Assembly: GCF_963675165.1 (NCBI RefSeq)
Contig: NC_087377.1
Coordinates: 14,504,198 to 14,568,197 of the forward strand
From: Halichondria panicea
Lineage: Eukaryota > Porifera > Demospongiae > Suberitida > Halichondriidae
DNA: 64,000 nucleotides
Direction: 5' to 3'
Both the position numbers and the translations under genes were made by a program. Below the pieces are notes generated by a model that saw nothing but the letters and a program-made list of their open reading frames with translations, was not told where the DNA came from and searched no databases. How positions within the stretch are numbered: the first letter of the stretch is position 1; the number at the start of each line of letters is the position of its first letter. Below are positions 5,590-50,205 of the stretch, piece by piece.

Positions 5590-6404
5590 TTAGGCCTAGC
5601 TCTCAGTCTGTGAGTAGATTCTACAGTAGTTGTTTATTAGGAAACAGCTCTAGCTTGGCACTAGCCTCGACTCCAGCCCCTTCAATCATAGATACTATAA
5701 ATTACAGTATCTATGCTTTAATCATAGATACTATAAATTTATAGTTTCAATAGTGGCCTGGTAAACTGTTGGAGCGTGGGTGGAAATATTTACCGTATTT
5801 TATCTCATTGAACGTTAAAATAGTATTTTATCTTATTGAACGATGTGATAAAGAACAGAAAAAAGAAAAAGGAGAGGCTACCTCTCTGTATATACTGTAG
5901 ACAGAGACAGCTAAGTAAAACCTCAGCTCTGTACATTTAGCCATTAACTTGAGGCTCGGATCAGATATACACTCAGGCGACAAGTCAATCTCATAAGAAA
6001 TTAGTTAAACCTGTGGGTAAAAAATAAATGTGGATAAGTACGTACAGTGGCTGCGACGTAACATAATGTGAGGACTACTTATTGATTTACACAATAGATT
6101 TACCATTGAAAGCACTATCCATTAATACACACTCAAGCAACAAGTCCCTCGGATCGGATACACACTCAGGCGACAAGTCCCTCGGATTGTAAACACATTC
6201 AGGCAACACATTTCTCGGATCAGATACCACGTACTTACTCTGTGACCAATTTTCGGCAAATGTCACAACAATGCTTCCTTCCAAAGAGAATGGCACTGAA
6301 CGTCAAACAGACACACCAACACTTTGAAGATGGCTTCACTCAGAGAAACAAGAGGAGAAATCACCACCACAGCACTTCTTTCAGAGAGAGGTTCACTGGT
6401 CCTG
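5590..6404. repeat. Gene-free spacer with an imperfect ~33-bp minisatellite
   Basis: Around 5951-6235 a unit of about 33 bp (GGATCAGATACACACTCAGG, CGACAAGTCCCTC type) recurs about four times with variation. It translates on the minus strand as repeated SDPRDLLPECV-like peptides, which I treat as a repeat effect rather than a gene. At 5680-5740 the phrase ATCATAGATACTATAAAT is duplicated. No exon was recognised elsewhere here. Confidence 0.5.
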
Positions 6405-7379
6405 TCAAGCTTCACATACTAAAGCTGATGGGAAGCTCTAATTAAAGCGGCAAGTACCTCGGTTCGGGGATACATAGCCTCGATCCCAGGCCGCTCTTCC
6501 TCAAAGAGAGGGCCTGGTATCGACTGTTTGCGCATGCGCCACATAATCCCCAGAAACTGGGGACTCCGGATATCATCGTATAATGCTCAGTAAAACCATG
6601 ACGTCACAACGAACGGAAGTGGGTTGAAGAAAGTGGAGAAGAAGGTTTCTAGCCCGTGTGATAGCATTCTAATAGCTACCCTTAGCCTGTTATGTTAACA
6701 AAGAACTCACAGCCTGCAACAGTGTGGATGGCAATGTCTGAACGAAGGGAAGGCTGACAATAGCCTATATGGACAGGCCACGCCCATCTGACACTAACCT
6801 TGGTGAAATTCTACATGTAGACTCTATCAGAAGAAATAGCATGCTGTAACCAAACGTACAGCTCTGTCTCTAGCTAGCTAGCTATATAGCTCTGTGTATG
6901 TAGTGTTCTTTGTGTGTATATGTTATTCAGGATATTTTTCGGGTAAAATGTCAGTTTAATGGAAACATTACGGGGAAATTATCCAATAATTTTGCGCATG
7001 CGCAAACAGTCAGTAGCAGGCCTCCTTTTGAGGCCTTGTGAAGGAGGCTAGGCAAGAGTTTATGATAGAGAGAGAGTATCGAACGTAGGCATACTGTGTA
7101 TCAGATGTATGCGGAGAGTAACGTGACTTCCTGTATCTGTCACAAGCTTGGAATTTGCACACTGACCAATCCAAGCGTGGGTGATGTAATCTATCAACCC
7201 ATCCAAGTGTGGGTGATGTAATCTACTTTCTTGATAGATGACATCACCCACACTTGGATTGGTCAGTGTGCAAATTGTGACAGATACAGGAAGTATGGCG
7301 CGCCGTGTGTTTCAATAACAATGTCTGCATATACATAGGCGTGTCCTGGTGTGAATATACCGACATAGCATGCACGTGC

Positions 7380-7875
7380 AATGATCGCCTTATGCAGTGA
7401 TCATGTCTGCACATGCAACCATTAGTCTCTGCACATGCAGTGATCATGTCTGCACATGCAACCATTAGTCTCTGCGCATGCAGTGATCATGTCTGCACAT
7501 GCAACCATTAGTCTCTGCGTGTGCAGTGATCATGTCTGCACATGCAACCATTAGTCTCTGCACATGCAACCATTAGTCTCTGCACATGCAACCATTAGTC
7601 TCTGCACATGCAGTGATCATGTCTGCACATGCAACCATTAGTCTCTGCACATGCAGTGATCATGTCTGCACATGCAACCATTAGTCTCTGCATGCGTGTG
7701 CAGTGATCATGTCTGCACATGCAGTGATCATGTCTGCACATGCAACCATTAATCTCTGCACATGCAGTGATCATGTCTGCACATGCAACCATTAGTCTCT
7801 GCACATGCAGTGATCATGTCTGCACATGCAACCATTAGTCTGTGCACATGCAGTGATCATGTCTGCACATGCAAA
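7380..7875 (-). repeat. Left array of 43-bp tandem repeats
   Basis: About eleven copies, some shortened, of a 43-bp unit containing AACCATTAGTCTCTGCACAT and GCAGTGATCATGTCTGCACA. Copies vary by a few bases and some lack half a unit. The array is inverted relative to the one at 8047-8700. Confidence 0.85.
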
Positions 7876-8046
7876 TGTGTTCCAGCCGAGTACTTCAATG
7901 GCAGATTCGTCTTCATCCATGTCCATATCATCTATTATATCTATCATTAATTTTTAATACATCTTTGATACACGTGCTTTAAATAGAGCTGCTGCATCAG
8001 GTCAAAGTATATGTTTCTCAATGGGACTCAGGTACACCTGTACTGT

Positions 8047-8700
8047 ACTGCATGTGCAGAGATTAATGGTTGCATGTGCAGACATGATCACTGCATGTGC
8101 AGAGACTAATGGTTGCATGTGCAGACATGATCACTGCATGTGCAGAGACTAATGGTTGCATGTGCAGACATGATCACTGCATGTGCAGAGACTAATGGTT
8201 GCATGTGCAGACATGATCACTGCATGTGCAGAGACTAATGGTTGCATGTGCAGACATGATCACTGCATGTGCAGAGACTAATGGTTGCATGTGCAGACAT
8301 GATCACTGCATGTGCAGAGACTAATGGTTGCATGTGCAGACATGATCACTGCATGTGCAGAGACTAATGGTTGCATGTGCAGACATGATCACTGCATGTG
8401 CAGAGACTAATGGTTGCATGTGCAGACATGATCACTGCATGTGCAGAGACTAATGGTTGCATGTGCAGACATGATCACTGCATGTGCAGAGACTAATGGT
8501 TGCATGTGCAGACATGATCACTGCATGTGCAGAGACTAATGGTTGCATGTGCAGACATGATCACTGCATGTGCAGAGACTAATGGTTGCATGTGCAGACA
8601 TGATCACTACACACGCAGAGACTAATGGTTGCATGTGCAGACATGATCACTGCATGTGCAGAGACTAATGGTTGCATGTGCAGACATGATCACTGCATAA
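8047..8700 (+). repeat. Right array of 43-bp tandem repeats
   Basis: About fifteen nearly identical 43-bp units (GCATGTGCAGAGACTAATGG followed by TTGCATGTGCAGACATGATC and ACT). They are more uniform than the left array; one diverged copy near 8606 has ACTACACACGCAGAG. Confidence 0.9.
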
Positions 8701-9314
8701 GGCGATCATTGCACGTGCATGCTATGTCGGTATATTCACACCAGGACACGCCTATGTATATGCAGACATTTTATTGAAACACACGGCGCGCCATAAGGAA
8801 GTCACGTTACTCTCCGCATACATCTGATGTACAGTATGCCTATGTTCGATACTCTCTCTCATAAACTCTTGGGCTAGGGGATACATAGCCTCGATCCCAG
8901 GCCAATCCGTCTCTAATTGAACGCTAGGTCGCCTCCTCGGCCTGGTATTGATTGTATCTGGGCGTGACCGGAAACTGGTAAGTATCAGCTATGTACTGTA
9001 AAATCTTCAGTTCATACAGTTGGCTAAAAATACAGCGATAATGATATAATGACACTAGAAATTAATACTGTGCACAGCAGTACTGCGTCCATAATAAATG
9101 CAGATGTTTAGAAGCGAAGATCTCAAACAAGAGCTTCCAGAAAGACTTAATAAATACTGCGTTGGATATGCCTGCTAAGCCTTCAGGTGGCATAACAAAG
9201 ATTGTGTGTTCACAGTGCATCAAGAGACAGTAGAATCCTGACGTCACTGGTCAGGATAGCAACCATAAGTGTTGAAAGAGCCATTCCACGTCAGTAGTTT
9301 TAGTGCAGGTAGTT

Positions 9315-9786
9315 CTATAAGATCGGACCCTTGGGAAGGACACGAGTGGCACTGGGGCATCCTCTTTCAATGAGTTCACACCCATCAGCTATAGGAGGAG
9401 TACAACGGGGGTTGGAGGGGAAGGTTCCATTTTGCTCCTGTATACAAATTAGTATGAACTTAAATTCACCATTCCACTATACATTTTGTAACTCACAGTG
9501 ATGGTCCACACAAAACTAGCCACGATCCCAGGCCGCACTTCCTTGAAGGCCGGTGAAGGAAGCTAACACAACACTAGTGCCAGTGCCGTAATGTCATATC
9601 TTAATCCAGATACCAAGGATTGGACTATAGGCTATAGTGTACAATTTCCAATGATGAAAGGGTATTATTGATTTATATCGCTCACCTTGACAATACATCC
9701 CAGGCCCAGCCACTTGTGGACACCCCTGAGCATAGTATACAAGAGATCGATGGCCAGAGTCTGAGGATAGACTCTACCAAGTGTAT
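9315..9786 (-). CDS. Two exon-like segments of unknown function inside element 2
   Basis: Exon-like segment 9786-9686 reads TLGRVYPQTLAIDLLYTMLR and continues GVHKWLGLGCIVK. It ends AAG before a GTGAGC donor. Segment 9437-9315 follows a TATACAG acceptor in the same phase, starts EQNGTFPSNPRCTPPIADGC, continues ELIERGCPSATRVLPKGPIL and stops. The 5' part is not resolved. I do not recognise the family. It could be the tail of a transposon protein or a captured host exon. Coding status rests only on splice signals and frame. Confidence 0.35.
9520..9572. mobile_element. Small TAGCC-type hairpin inside element 2
   Basis: TAGCCACGATCCCAGGCC at about 9521 is followed by a short internal palindrome (CTTCCTTGAAGGCCGGTGAAGGAAG) and GCTA. 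It lies in the presumed intron between the exon-like segments at 9686 and 9437. Confidence 0.45.
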
Positions 9787-10440
9787 CTGGCAATCAATGG
9801 TCTAATCAAGCGCTTGTATTAAATTGTGTAGTCAATCAAAGGTAGCCACTGATAGCAGAAACTTGAGAACCTAGGTCTGTTCTTTCATAAGAGTGATGCT
9901 CTTTCTTCCTTCGCACAAGACAGCTCCTCACACTCTAGCTAGCTAAGCCTATATCTATGACAAACTAAACTTGCAAAGAATAGACCTATGACACGGATTT
10001 CTTTGTGATTTATCGGTGATTTTACGGAGTAAGTATGCTTACATACACTATTAGTGTTTCTATTCGCTCCACCTTGCTCAGGTATTCGCTCTTTTTTAGC
10101 GAATACCTGAGCAACCACAGCAACCACAGCACATGCCCAGATACACGCCCAGATACAATCAATACCAGGCCGAGGAGGCGACCTAGCGTTCAATTAGAGA
10201 CGGATCGGCCTGGGATCGAGGCTGGGGATACATTACTTTTTTCAAAATTCCAACTATCGCACATTTTTGTTTTTTGGATTATTACGTCATCATTGCAAGA
10301 GCTACGATGTTGCCAGCTTGTTCCTAAGGCATGTAAGTCGGCTTGTTGTAGGGTCAGATTCTGCATAACGCTGTTTGTTTTTTGCTTACCGTGGTGCTAA
10401 ATCGTTCGAAAATCCGTGTTGTTCGAAGTTCCATTGTTTA

Positions 10441-10650
10441 CTCTAATTCTGGCGCATGCGTAAACAGTGTTTACCAGGCCGCCTTTCTCTGTGGTCTGGA
10501 ATCAAGGCTAGCTTGGCACATGCAGTCATGCTACTATTAAATCGTAATTTCCCTGCTACTAGATCTAGTACCGTATATTATCAGGAGTGCACTCCTGATA
10601 TTATACATGGGTTTTCTTAGCCTCGATCCCAGGCCGAGTTTTCCGAGGGG
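10441..10650. mobile_element. Partial TAGCCTCG-family ends
   Basis: 10452-10510 (GCGCATGCGTAAACAG ... GGAATCAAGGCTAG) resembles the right end of element 1. 10618-10640 (TTAGCCTCGATCCCAGGCCG) is a fresh left end without a matched partner nearby. In between lies AT-rich sequence and the short palindrome AGTGCACTCCTGATA. Confidence 0.5.
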
Positions 10651-44413: not shown

Positions 44414-47400
44414 ATGGCTCATCCGCCAAATACAATACCCGCCAAATGTTCCAGTTATCGTACAGTATATCCGTATGTTGGCGAGCTTGGTGGCGAGGTG
44501 AGTATCATGTCAGTGTGTCTGAATACTGTATGTACACATTTAGTTGGGTCCACAAAATGCATAATATAATTATAGTAGTATAGTGTCCCAATTGAGGATG
44601 ATTTAAAGTTGTTACCATGCATTTCCCCGTCCTATCACACTTACACCACTATAATGCTAATTATTACTTCCTTCTCTTCACTTTGTTTTCATGCAACTAA
44701 CCTTCTTGTAGTCTCCTTATCAAAATCTTTTACCGTGCTGCTCAGATCCCCAAAAATGTTTGTCATTCATATCCCATTAAGCAGTTTGTGTAACATGAAT
44801 AATAATAGAAACATGATCTGGATTCCTGGAAGTCATTATACACATCAGCACAAGTGTGTGTGATACGCTACGTTTCATGGGGGGGAGGAATTTCTAGGAA
44901 TTTCTATGTTTAGATATCAATAAAAGTCAAGATCATGTGCACAGATTAATGAATATATTATTAACTATACTATAGGACGTATATATAGTTATACTGACTG
45001 TTTAAATAAAGCTGCTAGCTTTTACTCAGTCTCCCAATCACATCTAATTCAAGCAAGACAGTCTATAAAAAAATTCTGTGTTTGCGTATACATGCATATA
45101 GATTCTTAATGCGTGCGTGTTCAATTACCATGAATGTGAGTTAATATAATATTGTATAGGTCTATATGCTTTATATATATATAATACTCATTGCAGTATC
45201 ACGTTCTACTATGTGCTCTGGTTTTCGTCGTAATTGGCAGGATAAGGATTGCGTTGGCTATTGGTAAGTATAATAGCAATAATTATAATTAGACATGTCT
45301 AAATCTGACATAGTTATACATGCAGAGTTAGTGATGGCATGTATAATTGCATGACATTAATTTTGTCTATACATTATAATTATAGTTATAATCTTCGATA
45401 GCCTCGACTCAAGTCCGCTTTACAGCGGCCTGGTATACCTTGTATGCGCATGCGCGAAATAATTCGTATATTTATCAGTATTACGCAAGTGATAAAATCG
45501 GACAAAGTACACAAAGGAAAAATACGTAAGACTGCGTGGTTGGTGGTAGAATGTTCAAGCCCACAATGGCAGCCACCAGAATATGCAGATTGTGCTGCAA
45601 CATTGTTACTTCTACTCGCTGCTCAGCTCTGTTCAGCAAAGAGTCTGTTCAAAGATGCCTTCCAGACAGACTTGGCAAACTGCTAGAGCTGCCAATTAGT
45701 GAGTGTGATGGGCTATCTTCATACATTTGTAGAGCTTGCACAAACAAATTCCAGTCTCTGGAGTCTAAACTTAAAGCCTTTAGAAGTATGGCTAAGTGTG
45801 GTTTTGAGCAGGGTCGAAATAAGGCTTCCATCTGTAGTCCTATGGTATCAGGTAGGAAGAGAACTAAAGACACCAGTGGGCTTGAAGCATCACCTCACAC
45901 AGTCCATGCTAGACCTCTAGCAAAACGTCTGACAGTAGGAGCACCTGGAAGAAGGCTTGCTTTCTCAACCAAGGAGGAACGTAGGTTGATTGCAACAAAT
46001 CATATATGTAGATGACAGGAATCATCTCTTTTTCATAGCGCACACAGACTGTCCTCGTCAGCCACCGCTGTTAGAGTTGACCAATCTCGAGCAGTTTTCT
46101 TCTGTTGACGGTATGTTAAACCACCTACAAATGAAATGAACGTAAATTAATATATAGTCATTAACTTAAAGGTTCAGAAGGTGTTGCAAGAGATATTTCC
46201 AAGCCTGGTTCGACTGAAACAGTTATGGTGAGGATAACAGATCTGATACTGTAAACACACCAAAATCACACTAATTAATTAAACAATATACAGATCACAG
46301 TGAGCTCACCCAGTACAGTGACTGCGGAAGTAGATGAAAGTCTCTAGAAATTACGCCAGGCACTGAATAGTGGCAACATTCAGTCTATTGCCAAGGCAGC
46401 ATTTTCTTGCCCTTCACTGAAGGACCAATTGGTAGAGGGTGTGGTGAAAATTCTTGACAACGAATGTTCCACTCTATGTCGTAACTCTGGGGAGTTTGTC
46501 TCTCTATTTCACCGGGTTCCAATTGACAATGTGGAAGCGTTATCATGGAAACAGGCTGTGTCTGAACTACAGCGAAAGTCTCCGATTCTATTTAGGCTTA
46601 TCCAGACGATCGTAGGACGTTCAGATCATAGGAACTTGCATAAACGCGGAGAGAGTCACTACCCTGGGATGTGTATGGCCACAGCAATTCTCTTGAAAGA
46701 GCGTAACACAAGAATGTGTGGTATTCAGTCGTTTCTGTCTCTCGTACTCTTCAACTGTAGAGTAAACAAAAAGGTTTGTACATGTACATGTACATGTATG
46801 ATGTGTGTCCACTACGTATTTTCAGATACAGGTATAATTATTATATCACAGAGAGGGATTGGAAACGGAAGTTACCTTGCCGCGTTAGGCCAGGGTTTAA
46901 TCGAGGCTACAAAATGTATGTATGATTGTAACGTTAGTAAAATCTAGACTAGATAGTGCCTGCAGTATACTCCCAACTGTCACCTGAGGAACGTATGGAT
47001 TGACACATGCAGTACACTGATAATTAAGTATTACCATTAGCTAGAAGCATACTCATAAAGATCTCAGAGCATGACACTCTTTGTAGCTATTTTGAAAAAC
47101 GTATTTTTTCCAAAGGATGCTCACCATTATAGAGGGCATGAGAATGCATGTTGTTTTAGGGGGGCTTTGAATGCATTAATTGCAGTGATCTTAATTCCAG
47201 AAACATCGTTTCCCCAAGTGCTGCACAACCGTACACAGATTTAAAAATTAATCAGTGTAACGCGATGCTACCTCCGTTTCCAATCCATCTCCTCTTATAT
47301 AATTATGATTACATTGAATTACTCACAGGTATACTCCAGGCTGAATCATCTTAGTGTCACTATCAGTTACTGTGCCGTGTTGAAGTTGGTCACGAAAATC

Positions 47401-50205
47401 AGCAAGCTGTACCAACGTCCTATCGATGCCTGGATTGATGAGGGTGCATGTTTCAAGTTCGTGGGGGACAACGTTGCTAAAACAAAGGGCGTTAGAGACA
47501 TACGTAGTGACCATCATGGTGAGCTAGTGCAAATGTACAGTTTGTTGGCAGTGAAGGGTCGTGTGAAAGGACCATCTCCAGTCTCAACCTTTTCCCCCCT
47601 AACCTGGGTTCCCTAAAAATAACTCACTTCCTTCCTACAAAGGCCGACATTGAGGGCATCCAAGAAAATTTGGTCATTCTAGTCGGTCGAATACTGTGCG
47701 AGTACATCAAGCCCCTCCAGCGGTACAAACGGTGTGTTGTCAGTCACATTAAGCACCCCCACAGCACAGAGATGGCCAAAAAATCTGAGGTTGTAGTCCT
47801 TGATGTTCTACACAAGAATGAGGCAAAGGCCGCAGACATGATAGACATAATGATCGAGAAACATTCATACTTGAAAGATTCTATTGAACTTACTGTTATG
47901 TCAGGTGGCGATCAGATGACTTGTGAAAGACAGCGATGTAGCAAAAAACATATGCGAGATGCGGACACTCGCAGTGGACGATTGGAGCAGTTAGAGCCTT
48001 GTATAGAGGACTGGCACTGCCTTATGAGTATTCTGGGGGTAGGTGAAGCACTCACTTGGACTTCTTATCGACCCCTTTGTTTCCACTGAGTATACCAGCA
48101 GGAACACCACGATTATGTAGACTAGTCACTTGATCTACCATTAGAGACACTAGGGGACAATACTACGCTCACTAGGAGGAGAACTAATTCTATCCAGCTT
48201 CTTGTCGAATAAAAAAGGCAAAGTTTGGTAGCAGATAGACTTTCCATATCCAGTAGGAACCCACAGGAAAACATCATGCCCTTCGTACAGCATCCGTAGA
48301 GTGTCAAGCTGTTTATCCCTCAGAACTAAATGACTTCTCTTCACACAAGAAAGGGCATAAGCCAGAGCGGAAGAGAACTCAGTGTCAGTCGAGCTAGTCA
48401 TCTTTGCTATTATGTAAAGTGTGTAACACGGACCACTAAAATTAGAATACAAAATAGTATACGTGTTTATTTTACTGACAGTATCCACAAATACACGGAT
48501 TACCCCCTTTTTGGGGTAATGTAAGCGCATGCGCTACAAGGTATACAAGGCCGCTTCTAAAGCGGCCTTGAATCGAGGCTAAATCTTCGATTGCACATAA
48601 TTATAATTAGTGTGATAAGTGTTTCGTAGAATGCATGCATGGACTATTATAACTGTTACACCTGGATTGCATACATGCATACACTACATGCATGTACATA
48701 TAGATGCCACAATTGCTCATGATCAGCTATCTTCTACTCATACCAATCGTGAGCAAGTTTGCCCAGGTGAAACAGTGTTGTACAGATGTAGTACAACAAA
48801 TGGCTCCTTTATTGCTTGGACACTACCACCCCTAGTAGACACTTCCAATCCTATTGTGTTCGAAAGTACTGATATGACTGAAAGTGTTAGAACTCGAATT
48901 CAAGGAGAGGTGTTGGCCTTGTTAGTCACCAAGACTCCTGTTTTTGAATCATTTCTGGTGATAAAATCAAGCGTTAATGTGCCTTTTATCAATGTAACAT
49001 GTACTTTGGGTGGCAGCAACACCCAGTTGTCAACAGTCTACAGTATCGCAAGTAAGTCTTAAACTATATATTCATTTGCTTTTTGTGGTATAATAATATA
49101 TACCTTATAATGACTTTGGTGCATGGGATATAATTATATTAGCAATCATACATTTTTATTGTGATTCCATTATAATTATTGTACCCACACCATCATAATT
49201 ATAATTATACTTATATATAGCCAAACCATCAAACGTTACTGGAATTAAAGTTGTACTTAATACCATATTCTGGACGGCTCCATCAATGCCAGTTGGTTTG
49301 GAATTCTATGAACTCCATGCAATTGGTAGAAATGCTTCCTTTGAGAATCGAGTGTTCCACGTTCTGGAAACATTTTTAAGTATCAACATAACTTCTTTCT
49401 CGGCTGTGAATATTACTGTCCAGAATAGGTGTGGTCAGCGAAGTGAAGCAGTTCCGATTACACTAAAAATGGCCCGTGAGTTCACATACATGCATGGGTG
49501 GGCATTAATGACCATTTGAAATGCAATTACACACTCGTAAATCTCATCTAGATAATTATATACTGCATGTTGACCTGCTGCATGTGTATAACTGACGTCA
49601 ACCTACTTTCTGAGTTATGTTCTATATATATATATAACACCATCATTATGTTTTTTTTACAGGTCTTGACATTGAGTTTACATATTATTTATAGCTGTAA
49701 GTTGGTGCATGTCGTAGTCTAGCTACCACCTTTAATATACATGCAAAATTGTGTTTTATTGCTTCATCGGATAGAGCAGAGCTTATAGGCTTCAAAGTGA
49801 CACCAAAATTGCACTACTTTAGCCTTCGAGTGAATGGTTGGTAGTATACCTCAGTGACATTTTGAGAAATCAACGTTCAATTAAAGGTTAGTTAATTTTT
49901 ACATTCCTGCGAAAAAGATGGTCGTTCAGTTTGTTTCTTCAACATGCACGATTAAAATATGCAAGTTTAAAGCATCACTGCATGAGGGCCAAAACTTTGC
50001 AGGCAGGTGAAACTTGCGTTGAAAAAGCAGTTTCCCCCAGACTTCACTCTATTTTCAAAAATTATTGCCTCGATAAGGACTCACATATTTCTCAATCTCT
50101 CCAGCTAGCTCATGCGACATGACTGATAGTGCTACTCAAGTGGCTAGTACCGTCGCTGCTGTATTCTTTGGTGTGCTGTTGACATCATTGAGTGGTTCTA
50201 TATAG
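44414..50205 (+). CDS. Gene D: Ig-FN3 surface protein with GPI-like C-terminus
   Basis: Predicted 284 aa. Proposed exons: 44414-44497 (MAHPPNTIPAKCSSYRTVYP...; perfect GTGAGT donor), 45197-45263 (hydrophobic, YHVLLCALVFVVIG), 48704-49051, 49221-49475, 50105-50205. Phases agree and the sum is divisible by three. The Ig-like domain reads QVCPGETVLYRCSTTNG, AWTLPP, INVTCTLGG. The FN3 domain reads IFWTAPSMPVGLEFYELHAI with VQNRCGQ. The last exon encodes SSCDMTDSATQ then VASTVAAVFFGVLLTSLSG and stops, as expected for a GPI signal or a tail anchor. The first two exons are the least certain. The 3.4-kb intron 45264-48703 contains the complete transposon 45399-48581. Confidence 0.65.
45551..48088 (+). 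pseudogene. Transposon gene: ZAD-like zinc domain plus DUF6589-like putative transposase
   Basis: Exons: 45551 to about 46008, 46048-46110, 46172-46227, 46294-46773, 47329 to about 47607, 47643 to about 48040. The N-terminus has the ZAD pattern ICRLCC ... SYICRACTNKFQSLESKL (four Cys). The core reads YPGMCMATAILLKERNTRMC, VYSRLNHLSVTISYCAVLKL, FKFVGDNVAKTKGVRDIRSD, HHGELVQMYSLLAVKG, TVMSGGDQMTCERQRC and EDWHCLMSILG. From memory this matches DUF6589 proteins of cnidarians and sponges. The Asp residues in GDN and GGDQ plus the acidic EDWH could be an RNase H-type catalytic set (inference). A TAG at 46345-46347 interrupts the frame and the C-terminus is missing, so this copy is broken. Confidence 0.65.
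48150..48401 (-). pseudogene. RecQ-like helicase N-terminal fragment
   Basis: The minus strand from a Met at 48401 reads LRDKQLDTLRMLYEGHDVFL then WVPTGYGKSICYQTLPFLFD. This contains the helicase Q-region and Walker A motif (P-T-G-Y-G-K-S) with the CYQ-PF signature of RecQ proteins. It stops after about 83 aa with none of the later motifs (DEAH, SAT, QxxGRxGR). It faces the ZAD/DUF6589 gene tail to tail inside the same transposon. Confidence 0.75.

Follow-up and report, generated by a model that had tools for sequence, protein, structure and literature searches.

The 64,000-nucleotide stretch of the Halichondria panicea genome analysed here (contig NC_087377.1, positions 14,504,198 to 14,568,197; hereafter the window) contains at positions 45399-48581 a transposon copy of 3183 bp with long terminal inverted repeats (TIRs). 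The TIR arms pair over 24 nt (45399-45422 with 48558-48581, 92% complementary) and again over 21 nt (45424-45444 with 48535-48555, 95% complementary). As the initial annotation of this DNA had proposed, the copy is flanked by a perfect 9-bp target site duplication (TSD), AATCTTCGA, at 45390-45398 and 48582-48590. The left TIR (about 57 nt, 45399-45455, plus strand) begins with the tip TAGCCTCGA and has a weak subterminal hairpin (z -0.8), and the right TIR (48525-48581, minus strand) has a strong one (z -5.5). The window contains the tip TAGCCTCGA 15 times where 0.21 would be expected, and genome-wide the tip occurs 10,275 times (5086 + 5189) against 258 (124 + 134) for the reversed pattern.

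Inside the TIRs, the copy carries parts of two convergent genes. The first coding exon on the plus strand (45551-46012, with its start placed at the first Met of the frame) encodes a four-Cys domain resembling the ZAD zinc domain. Its zf-AD match (E=3.5e-4, 21.2 bits) lies under the Pfam cut-off of 28, so that the label ZAD is tentative. The second coding exon (46348-46774, plus strand, predicted ends) has no known domain. The third (47320-48053, plus strand, approximate ends) belongs to the Pfam family DUF6589 and contains the motifs GDN, GGDQ and EDWH; it scores 57.8 bits and covers only profile positions 9-152 of 410, the N-terminal third. Its frame is shifted near 47600, where the open reading frames (ORFs) 47245-47613 and 47523-48089 overlap. 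On the minus strand lies the start of a RecQ-like helicase gene (48153-48401, motif PTGYGKS), cut by a deletion and matching the DEAD profile at positions 3-33 of 167 below threshold (21.1 bits, cut-off 26). The DUF6589-like core and the convergent RecQ-like fragment had both been recognized in the initial annotation.

The deletion became apparent from a fuller relative, L039, which starts at C14:5650576, measures 5643 bp and is flanked by the perfect 9-bp TSD GTGTTTACC. Identity between the window copy and L039 is 98.6% in the initial 2.66 kb and 95.7% in the final 0.52 kb; the junction of the window copy at 48059-48061 joins L039-element positions ~2652 and ~5109 with a 2-bp overlap, and about 2.5 kb is missing. 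The missing segment holds the second part of DUF6589 and most of the RecQ gene. In L039, DUF6589 lies in two exons (profile 9-152 and 183-406, the latter with 109 bits) that score above the cut-offs, and the RecQ gene on the other strand is apparently complete, with DEAD, Helicase_C and RecQ_Zn_bind all above theirs. Longer copies with the same ends and 9-bp duplications, which the initial annotation had suggested looking for, thus exist and carry both genes. L039 itself is not intact: the start and the remainder of its last DUF6589 exon are in different frames. Of the two genes, the window copy, an internal-deletion derivative, retains the beginning of RecQ and the N-terminal third of DUF6589. 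The same deletion is present in L041-L044, of which L042 and L044, fetched with both ends, each have a 9-bp TSD of their own, which fits movement of such copies once the deletion had arisen. A copy search with the first 132 bases, in which 40 of 245 candidates were scored, gave 17 at 92-100% identity (window copy included) and 23 at 79-80%. Between the coding parts of the window copy lies a stretch (46851-47291) bounded by a 22-nt inverted repeat (91%); the same sequence is present in L039, and a TAGCCTCGA tip lies inside it at 46901-46909.

Five diverged families, the window family and four others (F-A to F-D), have in common DUF6589 with a convergent RecQ gene, 5'-TAG ends and 9-bp TSDs. F-A, represented by two 5349-bp copies (L045 and L046; 99.94% identical, TSDs CTATGATAT and TCCACAAAC), combines DUF6589 and convergent RecQ with a first exon in which four Cys were seen by eye. 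It is present in six near-identical copies. In a PDB sequence search the F-A RecQ matched WRN/BLM with E about 1e-36; the hits were to WRN/BLM/RecQ. A profile search found no zf-AD match in the first exons of F-A and F-C, where CxxC...CxxC spacing was seen by eye. The elements start with TAGTTGGG in F-B, TAGTCT in F-C and TAGATGGG in F-D. Among 12 copies of the five families (nine undeleted ones of 5265-5643 bp and three deletion derivatives), the TSD was exactly 9 bp in 11; the remaining one, an F-C copy (L047, 1706-6970), had 8 bp. In an overlapping pass, which shared six copies with this set, TSDs of 5-13 bp were sought at 35 facing end pairs from 54 sequences. Perfect TSDs were found in 12 of the 35 pairs; their length was 9 bp in 11 pairs and 10 bp in the other, and pairing all left with all right flanks of these sequences gave no further ones. 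The initial annotation had taken the window element for the probable parent type of the small TAGCCTCGA elements nearby. This did not hold, since the copy is itself a deletion derivative; moreover, TAGCCTCGA ends are shared by a second gene-bearing family, F-A, so that descent of the small elements from the window family is not required. Elsewhere in the window, a 4849-bp element (5662-10510) has TAGCCTCGA-like ends, a 9-bp TSD GCTTGGCAC and further TAGCCTCGA ends nested within it, and its ORFs of at least 100 aa look unlike a transposase by eye.

For DUF6589 we used an alignment of 34 rows (A3). Misplacement of exon fragments by MAFFT led us to discard two other versions, A1 (31 rows) and A2 (36 rows); compared with A2, many rows of A3 are shortened, L033:1510-1731, L035:2102-2254 and L037:1495-1815 are out, and L012:2953-3072 is in. 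The motifs GDN, GD, DWH and EH are conserved. Two low-confidence structure models showed an RNase H-like order of elements with weak fold matches: Foldseek returned no match at E<=0.001 for either model, and a structural match to the hAT transposase Hermes had a Z under the noise line of the tool. The TSDs of hAT elements, at 8 bp, also differ from those found here. A PDB sequence search with the A3 profile gave no match, no transposase-named family appeared among the Pfam matches of the 34 members, and the P element, RAG1/Transib and other transposases were absent from the VIA lists, an absence that excludes nothing. Judging from the sequences and models, DUF6589 is likely the transposase, and its core is probably an RNase H-like DDD/E nuclease. 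The initial annotation had considered DUF6589 as a possible transposase; the analysis supports this as likely, with weak support for the fold.

DUF6589 also occurs in elements with shorter TSDs. One of them, L050 (1164-7382), and its copy on C14 (L053+L054) have CAGTYK ends, 4-bp TSDs (GAAC and TGAA) and a long intronless DUF6589 protein of 1732 aa, and none of the 50 RecQ matches chosen for the pairing count below lies near either. The true ends of L050 were defined from the second copy. Inverted repeats of 18-24 nt, considered as ends of L049 and L050, proved not to be their ends, and the ends of L049 were sought and not found. By eye, the L050 protein has a Cys-rich C-terminus and a nuclease-like stretch that looks XPG-like; this reading comes from inspection, as the PDB search for a nuclease gave no useful match, and Pfam gave no support. 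A passage in PMC10045372 describes AcademX elements as encoding a nuclease and having TSDs of 3 or 4 bp, so that the L050 type is, by TSD length, probably AcademX.

The same passage, citing Kojima 2020, describes AcademH elements as encoding a helicase and having TSDs of 9 or 10 bp, and the title of that paper (Mob DNA 11:15) places AcademH, of the Academ superfamily, in animals and fungi. L039 and F-A carry the helicase gene, of which the window copy keeps a fragment; 11 of 12 TSDs in each pass were 9 bp; and the undeleted copies are near the mean Academ length of 5565 bp stated for bivalves in PMC10294476. With RecQ and 9-bp TSDs, the window family differs from AcademX. The initial annotation knew of no named superfamily with this combination, a claim refuted by AcademH, which combines a helicase with such TSDs in print. 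The lineage is already named: measured against the published description, the window family fits AcademH. We consider it very probable that the window copy derives by internal deletion from an AcademH-type DNA transposon and is non-autonomous, having presumably moved with proteins supplied in trans.

A new superfamily was set aside as first choice because AcademH fits. It would mean that DUF6589 is not the Academ transposase and that the 9-bp TSD and the helicase arose independently here, as the missing transposase-named Pfam matches might suggest; our literature search on the name DUF6589 also found no mention. Agreement with the published descriptions in TSD length, helicase and size, together with DUF6589 elements in the same genome that have no RecQ nearby and the TSD length of AcademX, makes this improbable. 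The best indirect evidence for DUF6589 as the Academ core is that elements of the 9-bp class and of the 4-bp class alike carry this one Pfam family; such a role may be new. Academ is counted among the DDD/E-transposase superfamilies in a statement of PMC9587614. A still weaker case can be made for a MuDR or KolobokH element. Helicase_C and DEAD domains are attributed in PMC10799480 to AcademH, KolobokH or Helitron. KolobokH elements, like those described here, are DNA transposons encoding a RecQ helicase, on the complementary strand in Kolobok-1_CCri, and IS256/MuDR elements have TSDs of 4-10 bp. Kolobok TSDs are TTAA, a sequence found at none of the 12 TSDs here, and Kolobok and KolobokH were rejected on this ground. 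MuDR would fit by TSD length alone and was rejected because the 34 members, which matched 13 Pfam families at E<=1, hit no MULE family. We therefore give this reading hardly any weight.

Whether RecQ takes part in transposition is a separate question, since a mere passenger would be compatible with AcademH membership. We compared 44 chosen DUF6589 matches reaching the C-terminal part with 50 chosen RecQ matches up to 5 kb downstream. No RecQ lies near 14 of the 44 DUF6589 loci; six of these look like the long intronless type and three are divergent (L021, L025 and L034). Of the 50 RecQ matches, 20 adjoin none of the DUF6589 loci, and both counts favour a passenger. On the other hand, the remaining 30 DUF6589 loci have a downstream RecQ that is convergent in every case, and a 396-aa RecQ frame is open in six F-A copies. 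RecQ identity between families is 28-66%, and across 10 families the RecQ distances track those of DUF6589 (r=0.93, a value reached in 0 of 5000 permutations). The same pattern would arise if whole elements descended from a common ancestor, so the correlation alone does not show joint function. On balance, a passenger RecQ seems unlikely to us. The RecQ matches away from DUF6589 (e.g. G000:C7:3232170 and C17:3838359) include groups of similar copies and perhaps belong to other RecQ-bearing elements. In L021 and L025, EHYN replaces the EHLN of other DUF6589 members.

The terminal 48 nt were folded as DNA, and z below -2 was taken as a clear hairpin. Each of the five families has a hairpin directly inside the tip. 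It is clear at 7 of 10 ends, namely the left and right ends of F-A, F-B and F-D (z -2.8 to -4.3) and, in the window family, the right end (L039 z -3.5, window copy z -5.5). The left end of the window family (z -0.8 to -1.1) and the two ends of F-C (z -0.9 and -1.8) have weak hairpins. The clear ones lie 8-17 nt inside the TAG tip, with stems that differ in sequence by family and are similar in position. As a control, we counted internal 48-nt windows that equalled the weaker end in stability: 0 of 209 in F-A, 0 of 211 in F-B and 0 of 219 in F-D, whereas L039 had 17 of 221 and F-C had 19 of 209. No hairpin was found at the ends of the 4-bp type (z -1.0 to 0.7), and other TAGCCTCGA-like ends in the window had z below -2 in 3 of 12 cases; one (11991) is a palindrome of different layout. 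The pattern is uneven and merits a test; we do not count it as a finding, and hairpins inside many ends are possibly new. A speculative extension, to which we grant a small chance, is that RecQ and the transposase co-evolved as a single machine that works on structured ends, in which the helicase opens or senses the hairpins, and that exchange of the helicase for a nuclease on the DUF6589 core shifts the stagger from 9 to 4 bp.

For AcademH-type elements such as the fuller type (L039), in which one strand encodes a DUF6589 protein whose N-terminal domain resembles a zinc-binding one and the other strand convergently encodes a RecQ-type helicase, a mechanism can be proposed. The zinc domain would bind the element ends, and the DUF6589 core would cut at the TAG tips and join these, at positions staggered by 9 nt, to the target DNA. 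RecQ may assist in opening or processing the ends, or in repair of the donor site. The window copy would have lost its ~2.5 kb probably through incomplete gap repair, and then moved, mobilised by proteins in trans.

The main use of the window copy is that it ties DUF6589 to Academ. DUF6589, a Pfam family with no assigned function, thereby gains a proposed one as the core of the Academ transposase. The analysis also shows many RecQ-like genes of such a genome to be transposon genes rather than host genes. A link between accessory enzyme and TSD length has been suggested in print; with both TSD classes on one transposase core in one genome, and six near-identical F-A copies, this link becomes testable.
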